Shown here: positions 75-32,076 of the stretch, piece by piece
Layout: each line of letters opens with the position of its first letter
How positions within the stretch are numbered: the stretch's first letter is position 1
Source: Nitrospirales bacterium
GTDB taxonomy: Bacteria; Nitrospirota; Nitrospiria; Nitrospirales; UBA8639
Assembly (NCBI GenBank): GCA_029261355.1
Contig: JAJDBM010000067.1
Location: 1 to 58,300, forward strand
Reading direction: 5' to 3'
Length of the DNA stretch: 58,300 bases
Notes under the pieces: generated by a model
Told to the model about the DNA's origin: nothing
The model's database searches: none
The model's input: the letters and a program-made list of their open reading frames with translations, nothing else
Translations under genes and position numbers: made by a program

Positions 75-112
75 CTCTCACCTCATTTGGGTTGTTGTAC
101 CACAACCTAAAC

Positions 113-135
113 AGGTGTCCACTTTTATTAGACCA
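113..135 (-). repeat. Probable terminal inverted repeat of the left IS3 element
   Basis: Read on the minus strand, the stretch begins TGGTCTAATAAAAGTGGAC and lies about 40 bases before the orfA start. IS3-family ends commonly begin with TG and carry a GTGGACA-like core. The outer end would be near 135. The partner end is outside the window, so this is inferred from position and motif. Confidence 0.5.
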
Positions 136-540
136 CTTCAAGTCCTCCATTTCATCGCTGTAACCTCTCATTCTTAATTCACTCTTCAGCCTATTGAACC
201 CTCTTCTCAAGAAATGGCAGGGGCAGTCAATTCCTGTTCACTTCAATCTTCGACTGCCCTGTTTCTACGGCAAAATACCGTGATTATTTCCTCAGAAGTT
301 GCAGCTCTTCAGATTTCCGCGTAAGCCTGCTCCTCCCAATTTTCACAGAGTAGGAACCTTGTGAAACTTTAGTTGCTCTATTCAGTGCGGTAACCAAGGC
401 GACCTCGCATGAATCATCAACGTTAAGTTGCCGCTAGAGTAATCAGGATGAATGCAGTTGTGGTCGTAGAAAGTTGAAGTCCCTCGCGCACGCGTCTTGT
501 GTTCATTTGGCTCTGATTCTGTGTTGACGAGTTTGGCTCG
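136..540. other. Intergenic stretch without a recognised gene
   Basis: About 400 bases lie between the left IS end and the MauE/DoxX gene. I see no open frame with a convincing start, no tRNA and no clear terminator with a T-run. A weak 5-bp hairpin (ACGAG/CTCGT) sits next to the stop of the following gene. It may be a scar zone around the insertion, but nothing specific is recognisable. Confidence 0.4.
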
Positions 541-948
541 TTATCGTTTAGCGCAATAGGCTAACAGGGCACACAGAGCCACCATGACCAGGTCTTCAAT
601 TGGCGAGACCCAAGTCAGTGGTCTGGGAAAAAACACGCCGAAGCAGCCACAGTTTGCCAGCTGCAATCCCCTGAATAATGTGACGGTCATCCAGACGGCA
701 TAGCCAAAATTCATGATGGCTGCCGTGATGGCGCTGGTCTGTAATCGCCAACCTGAGAGCATCCACCCACCTAGGAAAAATTCGAATATCGTGACCGCGA
801 ATGCGATGAGGTAGAGAGATGACTGAGGAAATGCCTGATAGGTCTCTAGCACATCGGCGAATCCTGCCAGGTCCAGAGCTTTCCCTAACGCGGAACCGAC
901 AAGAATTCCCCCGATAAGTATTTGAAGTACCAGTCGTAGTATCTTCAT
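541..948 (-). CDS. MauE/DoxX-family redox-associated membrane protein
   Basis: This 135-residue protein has four hydrophobic segments (about 5-25, 45-65, 72-95 and 115-132) and a conserved NCGCFG motif at 99-104. That combination is typical of the MauE branch of the DoxX-like family, whose members support disulfide or thiol chemistry at the inner membrane. The cysteines near the membrane face suggest a role in electron or disulfide transfer; the actual partner is unknown. It is alone on the minus strand downstream of tmRNA, separated by the tmRNA terminator. A second DoxX-like gene lies at the far end of the window. Confidence 0.75.
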   Translation of the reverse strand: MKILRLVLQILIGGILVGSALGKALDLAGFADVLETYQAFPQSSLYLIAFAVTIFEFFLGGWMLSGWRLQTSAITAAIMNFGYAVWMTVTLFRGLQLANCGCFGVFFPRPLTWVSPIEDLVMVALCALLAYCAKR

Positions 949-979
949 GAATTTCTAGGTGTATTGGTATGAAGGGTTC

Positions 980-1018
980 AAAAAAAAGCCTCTGAGTGGT
1001 AAGCCACGCAGAGGCTTT
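980..1018 (-). terminator. Rho-independent terminator of tmRNA
   Basis: On the minus strand the stem AAAGCCTCTG (1009-1018) pairs with CAGAGGCTTT (986-995), extended by an inner GTGG/CCAC, and is followed by a run of T. It lies 11 bases past the tmRNA 3' CCA, so it most likely ends the ssrA transcript. Confidence 0.85.
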
Positions 1019-1028
1019 GATTATGGAA

Positions 1029-1380
1029 TGGTGGAGGTGGCGGGAATCGAACCCGCGTCCGAAGACATTTAGCGCAACGGCCCTACGTGTGTAGCTGATG
1101 ATTTTAGTATTCGCATTCGCCCACGCCCATCAACAGGCTTAGAACGTTTGCTAGCCCAGAAAGTTCTCATCCGCCGCCGCTGAGCACCAGCATTGGACCA
1201 GCCTGCAAAGTGACGTCCCTTCCCGACCCGCAGACAAAATCGGGAGAGACGTCGCGGTCAATTAAGCCGCGAGAGCCAATGGTTCGTTGGCAATTAATGT
1301 TTTCCCGAAGGTTTAACGAGACTCCGAGAGCTCGACACGCTCCGTTGACCTCCTGTTCCCCGTCGAAGCCAGTCACCCCC
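1029..1380 (-). ncRNA. ssrA: Transfer-messenger RNA (tmRNA)
   Basis: The RNA rescues stalled ribosomes by acting first as an alanine tRNA and then as a short mRNA. The 5' end GGGGGTGACTGGCTTCGACG and the 3' end with a T-arm (GGTTCGATTCC) and CACCTCCACCA form the tRNA-like acceptor stem. The coding part at 1291-1262 reads GCC AAC GAA CCA TTG GCT CTC GCG GCT TAA, giving the tag ANEPLALAA, added after the charged alanine; the ALAA end is the usual protease signal. Length is about 352 nt, one-piece. Open frames annotated across it on either strand are spurious. Confidence 0.95.
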
Positions 1381-1414
1381 TTGTGTGAAGTTGGCAAATT
1401 GAAGACTTCCCTTT

Positions 1415-1444
1415 ACTATAGCTCACGATCAAAGTTTTTGCCAG
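1415..1444 (-). promoter_or_regulatory. Likely promoter of tmRNA
   Basis: On the minus strand CTGGCA (1439-1444) is followed after 18 bases by TATAGT (1415-1420), a fair sigma-70 type pair about 35 bases upstream of the mature tmRNA 5' end. The leader would be removed by RNase P processing. Inferred from motif and spacing only. Confidence 0.45.
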
Positions 1445-1517
1445 GAAGTATTGGTCGCTCAGTTCTTGCTATACAGATAATCAATAAAGATAACTTTTCA
1501 ACCCTAGGAGCGTATTT

Positions 1518-1838
1518 ATGGCATGGGTCTATTTGCTCATTGCGGGCGCTTTTGAAATCGTGTGGGCGGTGAGTTTGAAGTTTACCGAGGGGTTTACCCG
1601 ATTGTGGCCGAGTGTTGGGACCGTTGTGGCGATGGGGATTAGCATGGTGTGCATTTCATTTGCGTTGCGGTCCATACCGATGGGAACGGCCTATGCGATT
1701 TGGACCGGAATAGGCGCTGCAGGTACCGTGATTGTGGGGATGGTGTGGTTTAATGAACCGCGTGAGGCCATGAGGCTGGTGAGTATCGCCGTGATTATTG
1801 CGGGCATCGTAGGGTTGAAGCTGTCATCTACTTCCTAA
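1518..1838 (+). CDS. sugE: SMR-family quaternary ammonium/guanidinium exporter SugE (Gdx)
   Basis: This 106-residue protein has four membrane helices and the conserved membrane-embedded Glu13 of small multidrug resistance transporters, in the context AGAFEIVWA typical of the SugE/Gdx branch. These proteins act as dual-topology dimers exchanging protons for guanidinium or small quaternary ammonium ions. The ATG is preceded by TAGGAGCG, a good ribosome site. It stands alone, divergent from tmRNA. I looked for a guanidine riboswitch in the 137-base leader and could not recognise one. Confidence 0.88.
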   Translation: MAWVYLLIAGAFEIVWAVSLKFTEGFTRLWPSVGTVVAMGISMVCISFALRSIPMGTAYAIWTGIGAAGTVIVGMVWFNEPREAMRLVSIAVIIAGIVGLKLSSTS

Positions 1839-1949
1839 AGAAAGGTTAGACAGAAGTTTCGTCTGGTGAAAAGGGAAGGCTGTCGTCAGGAAGAGGTCTG
1901 GGCAACGGGAGGCGAAATACGAACGATGAGCAATGAGATGAGGACGGAT

Positions 1950-2519
1950 TCAGAAAGCCCAGGCGACAAACGTATATCGTTCGCCTTTGGTTACTTCTTT
2001 GACTTCATGTGGATACATAAAGTTTGAGGGAAAGACGAGAATATCTCCTGCTTTAAGGGGGACGACATGTTTCCCTGAGAATACAAAATCTCCCCCTTCA
2101 TACCCATCATTTAACAGACCTAAGATAGACAAGATCGGGATGCCCTTATGGTTTCCATCAAAGATGGAATGAATGTGATCATAATGATTCCGCATCATCG
2201 TGCCAGCGGTATACCGATTAAAGCGAATGGGCGTAAAGGTTTTAATGAAACTTTTAATTCGATCATCGTTTTGAGGTGCAAATTTGATCATATAATCTTC
2301 GATAGCTGAGCACACAAACGGAGCGAGGGTTTCCTGTAATTCAGATGAGGTTTGTTGGACATCAAGCTCTTTCTCGCTTTCGGAGCTATAGTTACTGGCG
2401 GCATAGTTGTACCAGGAATGTTTGTCCCATTCTTTTGATTGAATGTCTTTTGTCACATCGACGCACACATTTTGGGGAATGGCGTTGGTGACGAAGATAT
2501 AATCACTCACCTTTTCCAC
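1950..2519 (-). CDS. 2-oxoglutarate/Fe(II)-dependent oxygenase (prolyl-4-hydroxylase-like)
   Basis: The 189-residue protein carries the facial triad of the P4H-type double-stranded beta-helix: His112-Tyr-Asp114, distal His171, and Arg181 for 2-oxoglutarate binding. Such enzymes hydroxylate a side chain or small molecule while decarboxylating 2-oxoglutarate. It is the last gene of the minus-strand sulfur assimilation cluster, 20 bases after cysN, so it is probably co-transcribed. The substrate cannot be deduced; a sulfur-linked one is only a guess from position. Confidence 0.75.
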   Translation of the reverse strand: MEKVSDYIFVTNAIPQNVCVDVTKDIQSKEWDKHSWYNYAASNYSSESEKELDVQQTSSELQETLAPFVCSAIEDYMIKFAPQNDDRIKSFIKTFTPIRFNRYTAGTMMRNHYDHIHSIFDGNHKGIPILSILGLLNDGYEGGDFVFSGKHVVPLKAGDILVFPSNFMYPHEVKEVTKGERYTFVAWAF

Positions 2520-2539
2520 GTCTCAGTTCCTTCTGATCG

Positions 2540-4390
2540 TTAAATAGAAAACTGAAAGGCTGGTTGGGCGCCAACGGTTTCCGCCAGAATACCCTTTTGC
2601 TTCAAGGTCTCGATGATTTGTCGAGCACGAGCATCAAAGTCATCAGGACCCAAAAATGTGAGTGTCGCATCCGGAAGGAGGCTTTCCTGTTCTTTCGACA
2701 TATAAATGGTCACGACTGGTGTGGGGTTCACGAGCGTTTGGATGGCCTGTGCAACGGTACCGCCAGGAAGCGAAAAGGGATTGGTGGTAGAAAGGACCAA
2801 CAGCCCAGTATCAGTGAGGAGTCTTGCGACTTCGCCATAGCGGCGCACCGCTTCGTTGGCATTGGCTTCACCAATATCTGCATCAAGGCCACGGCGGAGG
2901 TTTTCAGCATCAAGTAGATACGCATGGCGTCCTTCAGCAACGAGTACTGATTCGAGTTTACGAGCTAAAAAGGCTTTGCCTGTTGAATCAGGGCCGGTAA
3001 ATAAGACGACTGCAGCTCGATGTCCGTAATGTTGTGCCCGTTCTTCTGGTCCTATATCGCCTTTTACCCAGGCTGAATCGCGTTCTCGTGCTTCAGTTCG
3101 AAGGCCTTCTTGTTCGTCACGAACCATTTCGGTGATAATTCCGCCACCGGAAACATCATACTCATCAACTAAGACGAAACGCCCCGTTTCTTCGGACGTA
3201 ATATAGGAGTCAAAGGCAAGGGAGGCTTTCGTCCGTATGGTCAGATCGGCCACTTCATTTCGCTGGACGGCTGTAGCGGTTTGTCGGTCGTCCAGGTCAT
3301 TCGCATTCACAATCCGATGAATAGCAGAGACTTCACAGGCAATTTCTCGTGTGGCAAGCCGGAGGACATAGTATTTGTTCATTTCGAGGGAACGTTTTCC
3401 AAGCCAGAAGACATTGGCTCGAAAGCTGGTGGAGACGAGGGGCCCATCATCCTCATGTGCGGCAATTTGTCCGCGTTCCACGAATATTTGTTCATCCAAC
3501 GTAATCCCAACCGACTGTCCTGCTGAGGCACGCATGGGCGGTTGGTCGACGTTGAACGCTTCTATCGATTGAATAGCCGCTGATTTATTCGATGGCGCAA
3601 AGACAAGGCGGTCCCCAACTTTCAGCTGGCCAGCGGTAATTTTCCCGACAAGAATGCGGCGTGCATCAAATTTGTAGACGTCCTGGATGGGAAAGCGTAG
3701 CGGTTGATCAACATCTGCTGCGACGAGTGAAAAGTGGGACAGGGAATCTAAGACGGTTGGGCCTGTATACCAAGGTGTTTCTGGGGCATTCGTGGTGATA
3801 TTGATGCCTTGCTTGGCACTAGCTGGGATGACGTATTGTGGAATGACGTTTAATTGTGTCAGGAATTCGCGGTATTCTTTTTCAATACCACGAAACACAT
3901 CCTCGCGATATCCAACTAAGTCCATTTTATTGACGACGACTGTGACCTGTTTTACTCCAAGCATGGAAAGTAAGAGGCCGTGCCGTTTGGATTGATCTTT
4001 GACGCCTTCTAAGGCATCGATGATAAGAAGTGCGGCCTCTGCTCTGGCGGCACCGGACACCATGTTTTTGAGGAATTCTTTATGCCCGGGAGCGTCAATA
4101 ATAATGTATTGACGATTTCCCCAAGAGAAGAATGTGCGAGCGGTGTCAATCGTAATGCCTTGTTGTTGTTCCTCTAAAAATGCATCAAAGAGGAATGCAT
4201 ACTCAAATTCTTTTCCCTGTTGTTTGCAAATGGCTTGAATCTTCTCGATCTTTCCAACGGGTAAGGTCCCCGTGTCGGCATACAGGCGTCCAAGTAAGGT
4301 TGATTTACCATGATCAACATGACCCACGATCACGATATTCATGGTTTCTTTTGTTTGGGTGTTGTTGGGGGTCACGGTGTCGGCGGCCAT
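2540..4390 (-). CDS. cysN: Sulfate adenylyltransferase GTPase subunit CysN with degenerate APS-kinase (CysC) tail
   Basis: Residues 1 to about 445 form the EF-Tu-like GTPase that drives ATP sulfurylase: GHVDHGKS P-loop at 23-30, the DAPGHKEF switch and NKMD for guanine recognition. The last 150 residues match APS kinase, but its P-loop at 466-473 reads GPDSTGKA, with Ala in place of the usual Ser/Thr, and the usual DGDNxRxGL region reads DAENLRRGL. The kinase is therefore probably weak or inactive. The gene follows cysD with 2 bases between them, so the two ATP sulfurylase subunits are translationally coupled. Total length (616) is that of CysNC fusions. Confidence 0.93.
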
Positions 4391-4392
4391 GA

Positions 4393-5193
4393 TTACATGT
4401 ATCCTTCTTTTCGCAATTGTTCCATGCCGCGGCCTTCGTCTTGGGCGCGGCCGGCACGTTCAGCGACCTTACTGTTTCTCAATTCAATAATAACTTCGTC
4501 AACATTTTTTGAAGTAGACTTCATGGGGCTGGTACAGGGCTCGCACCCCAAGCTGCGGTATCGTTGTCCCGTTCCTTGATCCAAATATAAATTGTCCAAA
4601 AATGGAATGTTTTCCATTTTGATGTATTCCCAAATGTTAATTTCCGTCCAATCCAATAATGGGTGAATACGAATATGCGTGCCAGGTGGGAAGGAGATCT
4701 TATATTGGTCCCACAACTCAGGAGGTTGATCGCGAAAATCCCATTCGTTGTTTTTGTCACGTGGAGAAAAATACCGTTCTTTGGCACGTGTACTATCTTC
4801 ATCTGAACGCACGCCTAAAATAATCCCGGTATACCCTTTTTCTTCGAGTAAGAGTTTCAGTCCTTCAGTTTTGAGGGCCGTGCAGCATTCCATTCGCCCC
4901 TTTGTATGATTCATACCTTCTGCGAGGGCTTTTTTGTTTTGTCCGACGATTAAGTTTAATCGCCATTCACGAGCCAAGCGGTCGCGGTATTCGATCATTT
5001 CTGGAATTTTATAACTCGTGTCGACATGCAGAAGTGGAAAGGGGACATGCCCGAAAAAGGCTTTTCGAGCTAGCCAAAGTAATACGGTGGAATCTTTTCC
5101 CATCGACCACAGCATGCCCAGGTTCTCGAAGTTTTTATAGGCTTCGCGAAGAATAAACACGCTTTGATCTTCAAGCTGACGAAGGTGTTTCAT
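4393..5193 (-). CDS. cysD: Sulfate adenylyltransferase catalytic subunit CysD
   Basis: This 266-residue protein is the PAPS-reductase-fold ATP sulfurylase subunit, which with CysN makes APS from sulfate and ATP. The pyrophosphatase loop SMGKDST is at 30-36, and the C-terminal part has the [11 protein letters not shown]-type segment typical of CysD. Its ATG overlaps the stop of the TrpD2-like gene by 4 bases, showing tight coupling within the sulfur operon. Length is slightly below the E. coli protein (302). Confidence 0.95.
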
Positions 5194-6263
5194 ACAGGTA
5201 CCGTTTCAGTAGATAAATCAAGGTTGTCTGGTAAGGACGTTGTTGGTGTTGAGAGTGCTTTCAGTTTTTCTAAGGCCATGCCTGATTGAAGGGCCCGCTC
5301 TGCCAAGGGCGCAGCTTGGCTAAGTGAAGAGGCTTGGCCTGCAGCGTACAGAAATAAGGCTGCATTAAAAATGACCCAGGCACGGTAGTCGCCTTGGATT
5401 GTATTGTGTAAGCATGCAGAGACAAGGGCCGCTTCTCGTTGGGGAATTGATGAGCCATTGGGTAAAGTTAAATGCCCCATGGCCTGAAATGACCCAAACC
5501 TCAATCCAATATCCTGCGGTCGAATCAACAGTCGCGCAATATGGCCATTCCTAAGTTCCCGTACGGGAGTGACCGAGGAAATTGACAATTCGGGGATACC
5601 TTCAACGCCTTGCAGAACCATCGCTCGAGATGTGCCAAGCATATTCAAGGCTTCAATAATTTTATCCAAATAAGGAGGATGAGAAATTCCGATGACCTGT
5701 GAGGCGGCCCGAGCAGGATTCAACATTCTGGCTACTTGGTGGGCAAGGTTCTGTACTCCGAAATCTTGTCGAAGATCAAGAAGGTGGGCCAAGGGGGGAT
5801 GATAGTTTTCAAGGTCGAGATATCCGAACTTGTACTCAGTGAGCTGATCGATAGGTTGAGAGGTGGCAATGCCTAAATGTTTCAGAATGTCTGGAACTGT
5901 CGAGGCTGCTGCAGCGTTACTCGTTCCATGGATCAAGATTGTGGCCCCTGCGGAAGAGGCGATGAGAGCCGAAGCGATGATAGCATGACAGGTGTCGTGC
6001 TTTTCACCGTACAGCGGCACGTCCACAACTTCCGATGGTGATGGAATGGCAAGTGGAGGAACATACTGTCTGATGGCCGAGGTGAAGGCGGCTAATTCTG
6101 AAATGGATTCTGTCTTCATGCGCATCGCCATAAGGAATGCACCGACTTGCCCTGGGGTAGCCTGGGATTCAACGATGTTCCGCATGGCTTCCTTGGCTTC
6201 GTCCCAGGTTAAGTCTTTGCTTCGTTTTTGGCCCTTGCCTATTTTGGTAATAAATTGGTGCAT
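5190..6263 (-). CDS. TrpD2/YbiB-like protein (anthranilate phosphoribosyltransferase fold, not tryptophan synthesis)
   Basis: The 357-residue protein has the helical N-terminal domain and nucleoside-phosphorylase-like core of glycosyl transferase family 3. The PRPP-binding GTGGD loop of true TrpD is missing and replaced by [10 protein letters not shown], as in the YbiB/TrpD2 branch; E. coli YbiB is a nucleic-acid-binding protein without TrpD activity. It sits inside the sulfate assimilation operon between cysH and cysD, overlapping cysD by 4 bases, which suggests a conserved but unexplained sulfur link. I am confident of the fold and unsure of the role. Confidence 0.75.
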
Positions 6264-6348: not shown

Positions 6349-7089
6349 TTATTCTTTTTCGTGTTCTGTCTTATTCGGATGAAGTCCACATTCAGTCTTC
6401 TCGACGTGTTTCCACCGTCCAGATCGAGGGTCTTCTCCTGGCAGCACGGGTGCTGTGCAATGTGTACACCCAATACTTGGGTAGTTTTGGTCATGTAACG
6501 CGTTATAGGGAACCTCATTGGCATGAATGTAGGCCCACACCTGTTCCCCTGTCCACGTGGCGAGTGGATTGATTTTTACCAATTGAAACTTGTTATCCCA
6601 TTCAACGATTTTTGCATTGGCACGAGTTGGTGATTGATCTCGTCGAATCCCCGTGATCCATGCCGTATAGTTTGTGAGTACCCGTTCGAGTGGTTCAAGC
6701 TTTCGATGCTGACAACATTCATCTGGTTTGTGTGCCCATAAGGCTTCGCCATGGGTCGTGGCTTGCTTTTCCGGGGTCAACAACGATTTCATTTGAATGA
6801 TTTGATCAGCCTTGAGTCCATATTTGGTGCTGATTTGTTCTCGAACCTGATGAGTTTCAGGAAACAAAAAGTCTGTATCCAAATAAAAGAGCGAGGCGTT
6901 GGGCTGCTGCCGAAACAACATGTCAGCAAGCACTACGTCTTCTGCCCCAAAACTACAGGCCAAAATAATATGCGGACCATAGTCGCCAAAGGCAGAGGCG
7001 AGAATTTCCTGCGGAGTCTGGCCCTCCAATGTCTCATTCATGATTTGCAGGGCTTCAGCAGTGGGCTGAATGCTTGTTGAATGACTCAT
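6349..7089 (-). CDS. cysH: Adenylylsulfate (APS) reductase, assimilatory, [4Fe-4S] type
   Basis: The 246-residue protein reduces APS to sulfite with thiol donors such as thioredoxin. The paired Cys125-Cys126 and Cys208-xx-Cys211 form the iron-sulfur signature that distinguishes APS-specific enzymes from PAPS-specific CysH, which lacks these cysteines. The C-terminal ECGLH at 233-237 carries the catalytic cysteine. It follows the sulfite reductase gene with a 5-base gap, matching consecutive steps of the pathway. The APS specificity fits the degenerate APS kinase fused to CysN downstream. Confidence 0.93.
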   Translation of the reverse strand: MSHSTSIQPTAEALQIMNETLEGQTPQEILASAFGDYGPHIILACSFGAEDVVLADMLFRQQPNASLFYLDTDFLFPETHQVREQISTKYGLKADQIIQMKSLLTPEKQATTHGEALWAHKPDECCQHRKLEPLERVLTNYTAWITGIRRDQSPTRANAKIVEWDNKFQLVKINPLATWTGEQVWAYIHANEVPYNALHDQNYPSIGCTHCTAPVLPGEDPRSGRWKHVEKTECGLHPNKTEHEKE

Positions 7090-7094
7090 CTCTC

Positions 7095-9584
7095 CTAGTC
7101 CTCGACTTTTTCTACTAAGATTTTAAAGTGCTGTTGTTCCGGGTCCAATGCTTCTTCCGTTAAAATTTTGTGTCCATCATTACGAAGACTCATCGGGACA
7201 TTCTTGATTGGATCACCTGCATCCAACCAGACCTCAAGTTGCTCACCGTCATCCATCATTTCCATCTTTAATTTGGTTTTAACGTAATTCATGGGACAGG
7301 TTACACCGCGCAGATCGTAGACTGGTGTGTCCTGAGATGCGAGGTTGGGTGTGGTAGTTTCAGGTTGAACCTCAGACGTCTGCGCTTCGCCTAATTCGAC
7401 TGGAGCAAGTTTCAAGTCCTGTCCAATCTCTTCCGTTGCTGCTCGGCAGGCACCAACAAAATCTCGGGCAAAGTCTAGTTTGCTTTGGAGAAATGCTGTT
7501 GAAGCCTCTGTAGAACCAAGGTCATCAAGGTGCGCCGTGAGATTACGATAGGTGTCTGGCATCAGACCTTTCGCGGTTACGAGTCGATCATATTCAGCGA
7601 GCGTGTCGGCATCCGTGTTGGGGTCCATACCCTCTGTTACCAATATGGCTTTGGCTCCAGCGATGACAGCACGATAGGCCTTATTCATCGCAATGCCAAA
7701 TTGATGTTTTTCTGCCAGAATCCGAGCATGGTAAAGTTCTTGTTCGGCCTCTAATATACGATTATCAATCATTTCCAAGGCTCCACCGGCACATTCACCA
7801 GGCCCGAGATCTTCAACTGAGAACTCTTGATCAGCTTCCCAGTCGAAATAATATTCAGAGTTTTCTGCAAAGGGCGGCAGAATGGTATGAGGGATCAACG
7901 TTTCTTTCAGTTTTGTTTTGCCTGTCCGTGCAATAAATGCTTGAAGGCTTTCACCGTTTTCACGTTTTTCTCGATAAAAGTCGAGCAGATGCTGAATGGC
8001 GGCTGGAACATTTTTGGCCGGCACCTTCACGATCAACTGTGCAATCTTCGCGTTCCCGTTGACTTGTCCGCCAAGGTGAAGTTCATACACGGGTGCGATA
8101 TGGTCGCCAATACGTTTTCCTACACCATGCAGTCCTATCGTGGCAATGTGATGTTGGGCACATGAATTGTGACATCCACTAATTTTGACATCAACGCCTT
8201 GTAGGTCCTTCGGAGTCTCACCAGCTGGGAACAATTCTGACAACGCACGAGCTAGGCCTTTTGATGAAGTAATCCCCAAGCCGCATGTGTCTGTCCCAGG
8301 GCAGGACACAATATCTTCGACGCCTTCTGCGCCAGGCGCGCTCAGGTTTTGAGAGACTAAGGCGTCATAGAGTTCATGGATGCGGGCTTCAGGAATCCAT
8401 CGAATGATCATATTCTGACTGATTGTTGTTCGAAGGTTGCCATTGGCATAGGTTTCGGCAAAATCGGCCAGGGCATACATTTGTTCCGTCGTCATATCAC
8501 CAGAGGGCAGTTTGATCACTGCTGCCAGAAATCCAGGTTGCCGTTGGGCAATCACATTCGTTTTTTTCCACACCTCAAAACTTGATGGAGCGCCGGGTGT
8601 TCCGTGAGATCCATTGCCCGTTCCATTTCCATTCGAAGAAGTGCCATTGCCTGATTTTGTCGGCATAATCAGCGGTGCTTCATCTTGGTACGACAAGATA
8701 GGCAACGTCGGCCTTGTGGCATCAGATTTCAGCAATGTGTCATAGGCTTCTTGCCACTGTCTGGTAAATTCTTCAAACCCCAGTTTATCAATCACAAATT
8801 TCATGCGAGCTTTACTTCGATTTTTTCGGTTTCCCAAATTGTCAAAGACTTTGATGCAGGCCTCGATGGAAGGCATTAACTCGTCTATCGGGACAAATTC
8901 ACGAAGGAGTTTCGCGACGCGAGGTGTTGAGCCAAGACCGCCACCCACGACCATTTTAAACCCAATGGTGCCTTGGTCGTTTCGAGCGGCTAAGAGTCCA
9001 ACATCGTGAATTGGGGTCAAGGCGCAATCTGACTGGCATCCTGAAAACGCAATCTTAAATTTACGTGGTAAGCTTTGAGTCAAAGGGTTCCGCAATAAGT
9101 GCTGTGCCACGGTATTAGCGTAGGGGGTGACATCAAACACTTCTCCGGGGCAGACTCCAGCTAATGCACAGGCCGTGACGTTACGAACTGTATTGGCACA
9201 GGCCTCGCGGGTGGTGACGTCCACTTCTGCGAGTTTTCGCATGATCGTGCCCACCTGAGGTAATGGAGCAAAATGTAACTGAATATCTTGCCGAGTCGTC
9301 ACATGGCCGACGCCCGTTGCGTATGTATCGGCGAGTTCGGCAATGCGGCGGAATTGATTTGCCGTGAGACCGCCAAACGGAATTTTGATTCGCACCATTT
9401 GCACGTCAGGTTGTCGTTGGCCATAGATCCCAAATTGGAGTCGGAATGGTTTAAATATTTCTATTGGAGTTTCGCCAGTTTGGAGCCGTGCGACTTCATC
9501 TTCAAACGTTTCGATTTCTTCTAGAATTTCCTGCGGAATAGGAATCGTCTTAATTTCGGGTCGAGTAGTGGGCACGGTACTCAT
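7095..9584 (-). CDS. Ferredoxin-type sulfite reductase fused to a helical domain and a TusA-like sulfurtransferase
   Basis: The 829-residue protein has two ferredoxin-like/siroheme reductase halves (about 45-290 and 340-565) joined by a Gly/Asn/Ser linker near 309-332. Both halves show the cluster cysteine pattern: C139-x5-C145 with C183-x3-C187, and C428-x5-C434 with C471-x3-C475; in ordinary assimilatory enzymes only the second half is expected to bind the siroheme-[4Fe-4S] centre. A helical region (about 595-720, possibly HEPN-like) precedes a TusA domain (754-829) with Cys763 in CPMN. The enzyme should reduce sulfite to sulfide, and the tail may hand on sulfur. First enzyme of the operon. 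Confidence 0.85.
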   Translation of the reverse strand: MSTVPTTRPEIKTIPIPQEILEEIETFEDEVARLQTGETPIEIFKPFRLQFGIYGQRQPDVQMVRIKIPFGGLTANQFRRIAELADTYATGVGHVTTRQDIQLHFAPLPQVGTIMRKLAEVDVTTREACANTVRNVTACALAGVCPGEVFDVTPYANTVAQHLLRNPLTQSLPRKFKIAFSGCQSDCALTPIHDVGLLAARNDQGTIGFKMVVGGGLGSTPRVAKLLREFVPIDELMPSIEACIKVFDNLGNRKNRSKARMKFVIDKLGFEEFTRQWQEAYDTLLKSDATRPTLPILSYQDEAPLIMPTKSGNGTSSNGNGTGNGSHGTPGAPSSFEVWKKTNVIAQRQPGFLAAVIKLPSGDMTTEQMYALADFAETYANGNLRTTISQNMIIRWIPEARIHELYDALVSQNLSAPGAEGVEDIVSCPGTDTCGLGITSSKGLARALSELFPAGETPKDLQGVDVKISGCHNSCAQHHIATIGLHGVGKRIGDHIAPVYELHLGGQVNGNAKIAQLIVKVPAKNVPAAIQHLLDFYREKRENGESLQAFIARTGKTKLKETLIPHTILPPFAENSEYYFDWEADQEFSVEDLGPGECAGGALEMIDNRILEAEQELYHARILAEKHQFGIAMNKAYRAVIAGAKAILVTEGMDPNTDADTLAEYDRLVTAKGLMPDTYRNLTAHLDDLGSTEASTAFLQSKLDFARDFVGACRAATEEIGQDLKLAPVELGEAQTSEVQPETTTPNLASQDTPVYDLRGVTCPMNYVKTKLKMEMMDDGEQLEVWLDAGDPIKNVPMSLRNDGHKILTEEALDPEQQHFKILVEKVED

Positions 9585-9701: not shown

Positions 9702-10154
9702 TCAAATATGGTACATCAGCGTACGTTTTTTCTCGAGTTCCTGATAGTGATCCACTAGAGTTTGTAGCGAGATCGAACGCAGAATTGCAAGTTCGGCATT
9801 CTGTAGTTGTTGCCAAATTCCAGAAAGCAATGCATCGTCAGTACGTGGAGTTTTGTTCTGACCATTTGTGGAACCGTTGAGAGTATGAATCCCTTGTCCG
9901 TTCATCGCTTGAACGATTTCCGCGAGAGAGGTCTCTGCTGGTTCTTTGGCTAACGTGTACCCGCCTTGAGCACCGCGGAGACTGGTAATAAGCCCAGCCT
10001 GTTTTAACGCACTGAGGATGTGCTCAATAAATCGAGCCGGAATAGACTGATTGTGGGCAATGGATTTTGCTTGAATTGGTGGAGATCCATGTCTGATGCC
10101 AAGTTCAACCGTGGTCATAATGGCATAGGTGACTTTTTGTGAAAATTTATCCAT
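9702..10154 (-). CDS. Rrf2-family transcriptional regulator (CymR-like, no cluster cysteines)
   Basis: From the ATG at 10154 (MDKFSQKVTYAI) the protein has 150 residues; a longer frame to 10217 adds 21 unlikely residues. The winged helix with QSIPARFIEHILSALKQAGL and the RGAQGGYTLA turn is typical of Rrf2 proteins. It contains no cysteine, so it cannot carry the Fe-S cluster of IscR and is closer in type to CymR, a cysteine-metabolism repressor. It lies directly upstream of, and on the same strand as, the sulfate assimilation operon, so it is the likely sulfur-responsive regulator of it; that is inference. Confidence 0.82.
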   Translation of the reverse strand: MDKFSQKVTYAIMTTVELGIRHGSPPIQAKSIAHNQSIPARFIEHILSALKQAGLITSLRGAQGGYTLAKEPAETSLAEIVQAMNGQGIHTLNGSTNGQNKTPRTDDALLSGIWQQLQNAELAILRSISLQTLVDHYQELEKKRTLMYHI

Positions 10155-10368
10155 ATAAATCCATACAATTCCGATCGGAATTAAATCATAATAAGATGTG
10201 AGAGCCCCATGTGTCAATATACCTCTATTTTTCTCAATAAAAACAGCCTCAATTGTTATTGACTCAGAACCGATAATGAGGAGAGGAGCTTACCCAAACA
10301 TAGAGACGAATGACCCATGAGAAGGAAATGGGTAGCAACAAACAGTGAAATAGAAGGAGAATGATGAT

Positions 10369-29733: not shown

Positions 29734-30390
29734 TTAAATCTGTTTTTTTCTGTACTTCCACCCGATAACTCCCGCTAATCCACTGCCTAAGAGGAGAAAG
29801 GTCGAGGGTTCTGGCACTGGTGCAGGCGTAGGCGCATCGTCGAACGTGTATTCAATACGTGCTCCGCCACCGGCCGTAGTTACTTGTTTAGTCCTCAAGT
29901 TCCCACCACCACCTGTTGTGGAGAGTCCTGAAAGAGATTTGAAATCTACGCTGAATTGACCGGGGCCAATTAACTCAGAGAGAATTCCTCCAAGGTCAAG
30001 GCTGGCCATATCTGTTGAGGCAAACGGTCCAAATTCTATCGTCTCGCCTACAGCATAGTTTACAAATCCGGTGGATGCCTCGAAATTTAGCACAGTGCCT
30101 GGCAGAGGGTTGCTAGGGAGTGAGGAGTTCCAGAACAAATTCACTGTAGAAGAAATCTTAGCAAACTGATCTTGAGCGGAAGTGTTGGTTATTGAGAACT
30201 TTTGGGTCGCGGACATGAACACAGTTAATGTTGCTCCAGTGAGTGTACCAAGACTGGGATTAAACTTGTTTAAATTCCCACTTTCTTTGATTTCTGTTAA
30301 GCTTTCGATTATCGGGAGACCAAACTCTGAGGTGATGGACGCGGCATGGACCGTACCCGGGATTAAGGCTGCGCCTACCGATAATGTCAA
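29734..30390 (-). CDS. PEP-CTERM sorting-domain protein 1
   Basis: The 218-residue exported protein ends with VPEPSTFLLLGSGLAGVIG followed by WKYRKK, a full PEP-CTERM signal: the VPEP motif, a membrane helix and a basic tail recognised by exosortase. The start has a signal peptide with AHAA-like cleavage (VHAA). Start is uncertain: the TTG at 30390 leaves a short signal, and no in-frame ATG lies upstream before a stop at about 30436. The body is Ser/Thr/Gly-rich with no known domain. It lies between two ruvA fragments. Confidence 0.8.
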   Translation of the reverse strand: MTLSVGAALIPGTVHAASITSEFGLPIIESLTEIKESGNLNKFNPSLGTLTGATLTVFMSATQKFSITNTSAQDQFAKISSTVNLFWNSSLPSNPLPGTVLNFEASTGFVNYAVGETIEFGPFASTDMASLDLGGILSELIGPGQFSVDFKSLSGLSTTGGGGNLRTKQVTTAGGGARIEYTFDDAPTPAPVPEPSTFLLLGSGLAGVIGWKYRKKQI

Positions 30391-31239: not shown

Positions 31240-31872
31240 CTACTGTTGTTGTCGTATTCTTCTCCAGCGCCATAACCCTAGGCCAGCAAGACCTGTGCTG
31301 AATAATACCATCATAGACGGTTCAGGGACAGGCGAGGGATTGAGCGTTATTTCTACTGGCTGGGTGCTAGACGAAGCCCCATTCGGACCATTAACTTCTC
31401 CACAGATACCAACTCCGCAGACATCAAGCCCAACTTGAGGTCCGGCAATATACCCAAGACCCAGCGGGGGCAGGCCCGTGCGGTATGAGAATCCTTCATT
31501 AGGATCATCCCCAAGTAGGCCATTGATTTGGCCATGGAAATTATAGATGAAATCTCCTCTGCCTCTGCCCAAAAAATCTGACGAATTGACTGAAAAGGCA
31601 GGAACAATACTATTGCCAGAGAATTCGAACATAATGGCACTTACTTCAACGTCAAAGGTTGATATTTTACCATCAATGAGAAGCAGGTCGCCTCCTGTGA
31701 ACATTCCAGAAATTGAAGCCCCTTCATCAAAGCCTTCTTGAATAAAGCTGAAATTCATCGGGGAGGCTGTGGCAATGCCGTTAAAGGAATTCCCCAATAA
31801 TGATATGCCTAGTACTAGCACTGCGACCAATAGGAACTGTTTAGCTCGTAGGGTTTCGTTAACGCCTTTCAT
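31240..31872 (-). CDS. PEP-CTERM sorting-domain protein 2
   Basis: From the ATG at 31872 (MKGVNETLRAKQ) the protein has 210 residues. It carries a signal peptide (about 9-34, ending ATAS) and a C-terminal PEP-CTERM: PVPEPSMMVLFSTGLAGLGL then WRWRRIRQQQ. The body is Gly/Ser/Asn-rich. Exosortase would cleave after the PEP motif. It sits between ruvA fragment 2 and intact ruvA, and is not obviously similar in its body to PEP-CTERM protein 1. A longer start at 31911 is less likely because the signal peptide begins at the later ATG. Confidence 0.82.
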   Translation of the reverse strand: MKGVNETLRAKQFLLVAVLVLGISLLGNSFNGIATASPMNFSFIQEGFDEGASISGMFTGGDLLLIDGKISTFDVEVSAIMFEFSGNSIVPAFSVNSSDFLGRGRGDFIYNFHGQINGLLGDDPNEGFSYRTGLPPLGLGYIAGPQVGLDVCGVGICGEVNGPNGASSSTQPVEITLNPSPVPEPSMMVLFSTGLAGLGLWRWRRIRQQQ

Positions 31873-32076
31873 TTTCTCAGCCTTTCTGTGGATCAAATCA
31901 TAAGCTGCCACTCCGCACGGTAGCCTACATAATTGATGAATTTAGTTTTGATTGAAAACTATTTATTAGCTCATAATTCACGAGCGAAGTCAAGTTCGAG
32001 CATGAGGTCCTTGAGGACAGAATAATAAATGCTACAATTCCGTGCTTCTGGAAGAGCAAATCAGGTGACCCTGAGA

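Follow-up and report, generated by a model that had tools for sequence, protein, structure and literature searches.

A conserved Nitrospirota sulfite reductase variant with a putative second iron–sulfur cluster site and a TusA tail

Assimilatory sulfite reductases (aSirs) are probably the descendants of a duplicated and fused protein in which one copy gave up its cluster motif, and a single cluster motif, with the N-half one lost, is among the marks by which they are recognized (PMC10229431). In haloarchaea, an aSir combined with an F420H2 dehydrogenase is known as aFsr (PMC3448663). What such enzymes deliver is a question reopened by in vitro work on four assimilatory sulfite reductases (SiRs), for which zero-valent sulfur exceeded sulfide and was the main product (PMC13188885). 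The window analyzed here, a 58,300-nucleotide stretch of DNA from a Nitrospirales bacterium, encodes a protein of this kind that carries cluster motifs in both halves and ends in a TusA domain. Among the open-access papers searched, we found no earlier description of a SiR–TusA–HEPN fusion or of a Nitrospira SiR with TusA.

The gene lies on the minus strand (7095..9584), as do all features of the window described below, and encodes 829 amino acids arranged as SiR core, GECA linker, HEPN-like domain, and TusA domain. The open reading frame starts with ATG, and a GGAGG resembling a ribosome-binding site stands immediately 5′ of it on the coding strand. Pfam models identified two NIR_SIR domains (E=1.6e-60) and two NIR_SIR_ferr domains (E=6.7e-38). 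The N-half NIR_SIR domain (8745..9197) contains the motif C139-x5-C145 ... C183-x3-C187 (9024..9170), and the C-half domain (7896..8324) contains C428-x5-C434 ... C471-x3-C475 (8160..8303), the siroheme-linked site in known enzymes; all eight cysteines are exactly where the original prediction had placed them. The fused helical and TusA-like CPMN domains that it had described were likewise recovered. TusA (PF01206; residues 756-826, 7107..7319) scored 57.7 bits against a cut-off of 28.6, with Cys763 in the CPMN motif and Asn following CPM, while the HEPN-like helical domain (PF05168; residues 610-689, 7518..7757) scored 21.8 bits, marginally below its cut-off of 22. HEPN matches at E<=0.01 were found in 12 of 23 SiR relatives, one of them (L175) scoring 27.8 bits.

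Further marks of an aSir are two NIR_SIR_ferr and two NIR_SIR domains per chain, a CX5CXnCX3C cluster motif in the C half, and a catalytic Arg/Arg/Lys/Lys set, and the fusion has all of these, the catalytic set as judged by alignment. Its N-half motif is complete, not lost, and we therefore regard it as a variant of assimilatory SiR. It scored under the curated cut-offs of the NCBIfam equivalogs for NirA (NF007126, 293/523 bits), CysI (TIGR02041, 126.5/756 bits), and sir (TIGR02042, 123/731 bits). On the sequence evidence, we are confident that the protein is a real and conserved assimilatory sulfite reductase variant that ends in TusA and has retained the motif of a second cluster site.

The basic active-site residues around the siroheme of Escherichia coli SiRHP (R83, R153, K215, and K217) align with R98, R134, K175, and K177 of the fusion, all in the N half, R98 lying slightly upstream of the NIR_SIR domain. 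In a panel of 63 aligned reductases, these four residues were invariant across the SiR rows, and the NirA rows had Asn at 177; the equivalent C-half positions (389, 423, 463, and 465) showed no conservation. As the catalytic set is present in the N half only, the active site is expected to be the usual one, formed by the C-half cluster together with N-half residues. We also considered whether the N-half cluster could form a catalytic centre of its own; this is unlikely, the C half having no conserved R/R/K/K set. An AlphaFold2 model of the full-length protein based on 51 close relatives was poor (pLDDT 60) and was set aside. A cofactor-free model of the core, based on 65 rows including more distant ones, reached a pLDDT of 82 and a pTM of 0.84 and has the sulfite/nitrite reductase fold, matching Mtb NirA (1zj8; Z 35.7), plant NiR (Z about 33), and SiRHP (Z about 28); its N half alone matched Fsr (Z 20) and Dsr subunits (Z 17).

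On balance, we favor the reading that the fusion is an assimilatory siroheme SiR with one active centre and a retained second [4Fe-4S] site and that its product sulfur is partly handed to its own TusA domain. Reduction of sulfite would take place at a single siroheme–[4Fe-4S] centre, to which the C half contributes the cysteines and the N half R98/R134/K175/K177. The N half would keep a second [4Fe-4S] site in the pseudo-symmetric position, as in DsrA, a site lost or eroded in most assimilatory enzymes and most likely serving structure or electron entry, not catalysis. The product sulfur would, at least partly, pass within the same chain to Cys763 of TusA, possibly via Cys598 in the mobile linker, and from there onward to sulfur-using pathways. 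Counting against this reading are a relative with two of the N-half ligands lost, relatives without TusA, the cofactor-free nature of the model, and the dependence of the evolutionary argument on parsimony on an unrooted tree.

The original prediction offered, as one possibility, that sulfide is channelled onto the TusA cysteine as persulfide, and the part of this that gains support is a sulfur hand-off to TusA, for which the evidence comes from gene context. At three related loci (L128, L129, and L130), the SiR has no tail, and tusA is instead a separate gene immediately downstream. In L175 (G133:C10:2500-9500, 100-5939), the SiR carries two tandem TusA domains; DsrE/DsrH-like and DsrE genes lie downstream of it, and aprB and aprA upstream. 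Proteins of the DsrE family are the usual partners of TusA, and a DsrE_2-like gene adjoins SiR genes in eight surveyed loci. The GECA motif (7788..7799) is situated between core and tail, and its cysteine, Cys598, does not vary among Nitrospirota, Bacteroidota, and Thermus; the Thermus SiR terminates at this motif (...GRGECAV). The segment is of low confidence in the core model and is probably mobile; an invariant cysteine on a flexible arm beside a siroheme enzyme recalls the arm of DsrC, although only by analogy. Zero-valent sulfur as the product (PMC13188885) would supply something for the carrier to accept.

The tail could instead be a carrier in its own right, serving Moco or tRNA thiolation, for instance. 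It would then owe its fusion solely to co-expression or proximity and receive its sulfur from other sulfurtransferases, and the reductase would release free sulfide. Sulfide release must work without TusA in Thermus and Bacteroidota, whose SiR-core relatives have no such domain; TusA also lies outside the fold core, and the genome contains two further TusA genes. In L128 (4063-4843), moaE and a moaD-like gene of the ThiS family adjoin the SiR–tusA pair, which hints at a link to Moco sulfur. The persistence of the SiR–TusA association across families, as a fusion, as an adjacent split gene, and as a tandem duplication, nevertheless favors a functional link, and we regard free release with an independently loaded tail as unlikely, if deserving of serious consideration.

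The case for a second cluster is based on homology. In all 80 aligned Nitrospirales proteins, 12 of the 13 cysteines were invariant, namely the eight cluster cysteines and C129, C598, C713, and C763, and C243 alone varied; so regular a pattern is not due to chance. Aligning the N-half profile (56-285) with the C half (343-560) using hhalign gave E=9.4e-22 and placed C139/C145/C183/C187 opposite C428/C434/C471/C475, with all four pairs in register. DsrA proteins of Nitrospirota genomes share these four cysteines, as well as the K-x-K pattern preceding the third of them. The N-half motif thus occupies the position equivalent to the cluster-holding site of the C half, and it is well supported that the N half would be able to bind a second cluster, as originally proposed; that it does so we infer from the sequence.

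The resemblance to DsrA bears on two more far-reaching readings. The fusion might be a single-chain, DsrAB-like two-centre SiR that releases no sulfide, with Cys598 acting like the DsrC arm: it would accept sulfur from the siroheme in zero-valent or persulfide form and pass it to the TusA domain of the same chain. We consider this doubtful; if true, assimilatory sulfite reduction in Nitrospirota would yield carrier-bound sulfur, and the fusion would represent a still-living intermediate stage from which assimilatory SiRs originated. Alternatively, the N half might bind a complete second siroheme–[4Fe-4S], DsrA-like and non- or weakly catalytic, making the protein the single-chain equivalent of DsrAB. 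Such a reading can draw on the DsrA-like cysteine motif and Lys pattern and on the halves being full homologous repeats, but the C-half residues facing the N-half site include no conserved basic set and the NCBIfam dsrA and dsrB scores are far under their cut-offs, and we find it doubtful as well.

The ligand states of the panel provide a further view of the N-half site. All four cysteines (CCCC) were present in all 35 panel Nitrospirota SiRs of the fusion type (families f1-f6, f8-f10, and f17), down to about 40% identity, and in the Nitrospirota families f35 and f36, which were added later; L169 and L170 also read CCCC by alignment, with a one-residue insertion in the N motif. The eight cluster cysteines were kept in nearly all sampled Nitrospirota lineages beyond Nitrospirales. 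The one exception, L168 of family f7 (G139:C25:140500-147500, 3318-5768), is 50% identical and shares its N-half ligand set, C-S-C-H, with L113 of Thermus oshimai (CSCH), and it retains the TusA tail and aprAB neighbors despite the loss of two ligands. Outside the fusion type, Nitrospirota NirA proteins have C[NSAGD]CC and haloarchaeal enzymes C[DT]CC, three of the four cysteines in each case, and in the panel the set was lost in Bacteroidota, Proteobacteria, Deinococcus, Streptomyces, and CysI-type proteins. The C-x-C-C pattern of the Nitrospirota NirA loci (L084-L088, L097, L099, L101, and L147) may itself be a three-cysteine cluster site.

These data qualify what had been expected of the N-half cysteines. 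They do set the fusion apart from the aligned solved plant NiR, which is without them, but less so from the Nitrospirota NirA and haloarchaeal enzymes, which keep three of four. Close relatives lacking the cysteines had been named as grounds for abandoning the proposal, and L168 is in part such a relative. Since L168 keeps everything else, the second site is dispensable for the remaining architecture, and the possession of two clusters and that of TusA are separable traits. Dispensability in L168 and the mixed ligand sets of relatives (CSCH, CDCC, CTCC) would also suit N-half cysteines that hold zinc or disulfides, or that are a conserved folding relic, with no cluster; this is improbable, because the C-x5-C/C-x3-C spacing is exactly in register with both the known cluster site and DsrA and the cysteines are invariant in 80 of 80 proteins.

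In a tree built without the ligand columns, the three- and four-cysteine rows were placed on either side of a deep, well-supported split, with L168 within the four-cysteine group, and a common origin of CSCH in Thermus and L168 was not favored, although the AU test did not reject it (p=0.19). On the unrooted tree, parsimony would favor loss over gain: the sequences are most simply explained if their ancestor had both motifs and ligands were lost repeatedly, in agreement with the duplication and fusion scenario (PMC10229431). The three cysteines of the Nitrospirota NirA and haloarchaeal enzymes suggest that a DsrAB-like second site was present ancestrally and disappeared step by step, and the fusion looks like the intermediate predicted for the evolution of assimilatory SiRs. 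With both motifs kept here and four-, three-, two-, and zero-ligand states among its relatives, the loss scenario of PMC10229431 becomes testable on living enzymes. The spread outside Nitrospirota is known solely from plasmid, phage, and viral records, and scans of viral contigs contributed no more than a single SiR of the Bacteroidota kind and a handful of NirA-type sequences.

The gene context indicates the pathway in which the enzyme works. Directly upstream of the SiR is an Rrf2-family regulator (9702..10217) whose nearest named relatives, CymR and IscR, were both below cut-off. Downstream follow cysH for APS/PAPS reductase (6349..7089), a TrpD2/YbiB-like gene of the glycosyltransferase-3 family (5190..6263), cysD for the small subunit of sulfate adenylyltransferase (4393..5193), and cysNC for its large subunit with a partial APS-kinase domain (2540..4390). 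The genes of this operon, rrf2-SiR-cysH-trpD2-cysD-cysNC, recur in order at related loci, and the TrpD2/YbiB-like gene is present at 69 of 95. CysH has the CC and CxxC cysteines of APS reductases, and the APS-kinase domain of CysNC covers positions 2-88 of the 152-position model only and appears partial. In other Nitrospirota families, the SiR lies beside aprA, aprB, and/or sat (L131-L134, L142, L144, L146, L168, and L175), some of these neighbor labels resting on sequence signatures. An aprA model matched at E<1e-60 in 17 of 20 genomes, the exceptions being the window's own genome (G000), G113, and G095. Neither DsrA nor DsrC was found above the curated cut-off in the 20 genomes, and the window's genome gave no DsrC match at all.

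Given an assimilatory operon and the lack of DsrA and DsrC above cut-off in the 20 genomes, sulfate assimilation is the most likely function. The operon contains no flavoprotein partner gene, which makes ferredoxin the likely electron donor. The SiR fusion is the sole NIR_SIR gene of the window's genome, and a second one, of the NirA type, is present in many relatives, some of them from the same genus. Oxidative action with TusA feeding sulfur in, or nitrite assimilation in place of a missing nitrite reductase, would suit the pairing of relatives with aprAB, sat, and DsrE-family genes or the single NIR_SIR gene, but is very improbable for an enzyme that sits with cysH, cysD, and cysNC in a group of genomes without DsrA or DsrC above cut-off and with a separate NirA in same-genus relatives. 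Elsewhere in the window, 29734-30390 and 31240-31911 encode two predicted exported proteins with PEP-CTERM-like C termini (VPEPS...GLAG).

In its core, the fusion is closest to the ferredoxin-type NirA/SirA enzymes (Mtb NirA, 1zj8; tobacco NiR, 3b0h), with which it shares the tandem ferredoxin-like and NIR_SIR halves, the C-half CX5CXnCX3C motif, catalytic Arg and Lys residues from the N half, and the fold (Z 34-36). The aligned plant NiR sequences are without the N-half cluster motif, and NirA/SirA enzymes have no GECA linker, HEPN domain, or TusA tail. The SiR-HEPN-like proteins of Bacteroidota (L114, L115, and L157) and the Thermus SiR (L113) are 34-43% identical and have GECA with its invariant cysteine, the former also a helical tail. 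They differ in their N-half ligands, lost in Bacteroidota (SHHS/SDSS/SNTT) and half lost in Thermus, and in having no TusA. Two haloarchaeal siroheme reductases (L120, 2122-4521; L121, 2029-4569), annotated as rhodanese-like domain proteins and adjoined by an FrhB-type gene in an aFsr-like arrangement, are likewise assimilatory-type reductases fused to a sulfurtransferase-type domain, with three N-half cysteines retained. They differ in carrying a rhodanese-like domain, N-terminal in some aFsr enzymes, in place of TusA, in the FrhB-type partner gene, and in being without the GECA-HEPN tail.

With DsrAB, the fusion shares a cluster motif in each homologous half and, as proposed here for TusA, the passing of sulfur to a carrier protein, which for DsrAB is DsrC. 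Membership in DsrAB was rejected on the scores of the dsrA (36.4/393 bits) and dsrB (71.9/341 bits) models and the lack of DsrC in the genome. DsrAB consists of two subunits with inserted ferredoxin domains, a DsrB motif of the form CXnCCX3C, and DsrC as partner, whereas the fusion is a single chain with no insert and no DsrC gene. Its covalently attached TusA domain permits a direct test of whether assimilatory sulfur is delivered to a carrier or as free sulfide, the question reopened by PMC13188885.
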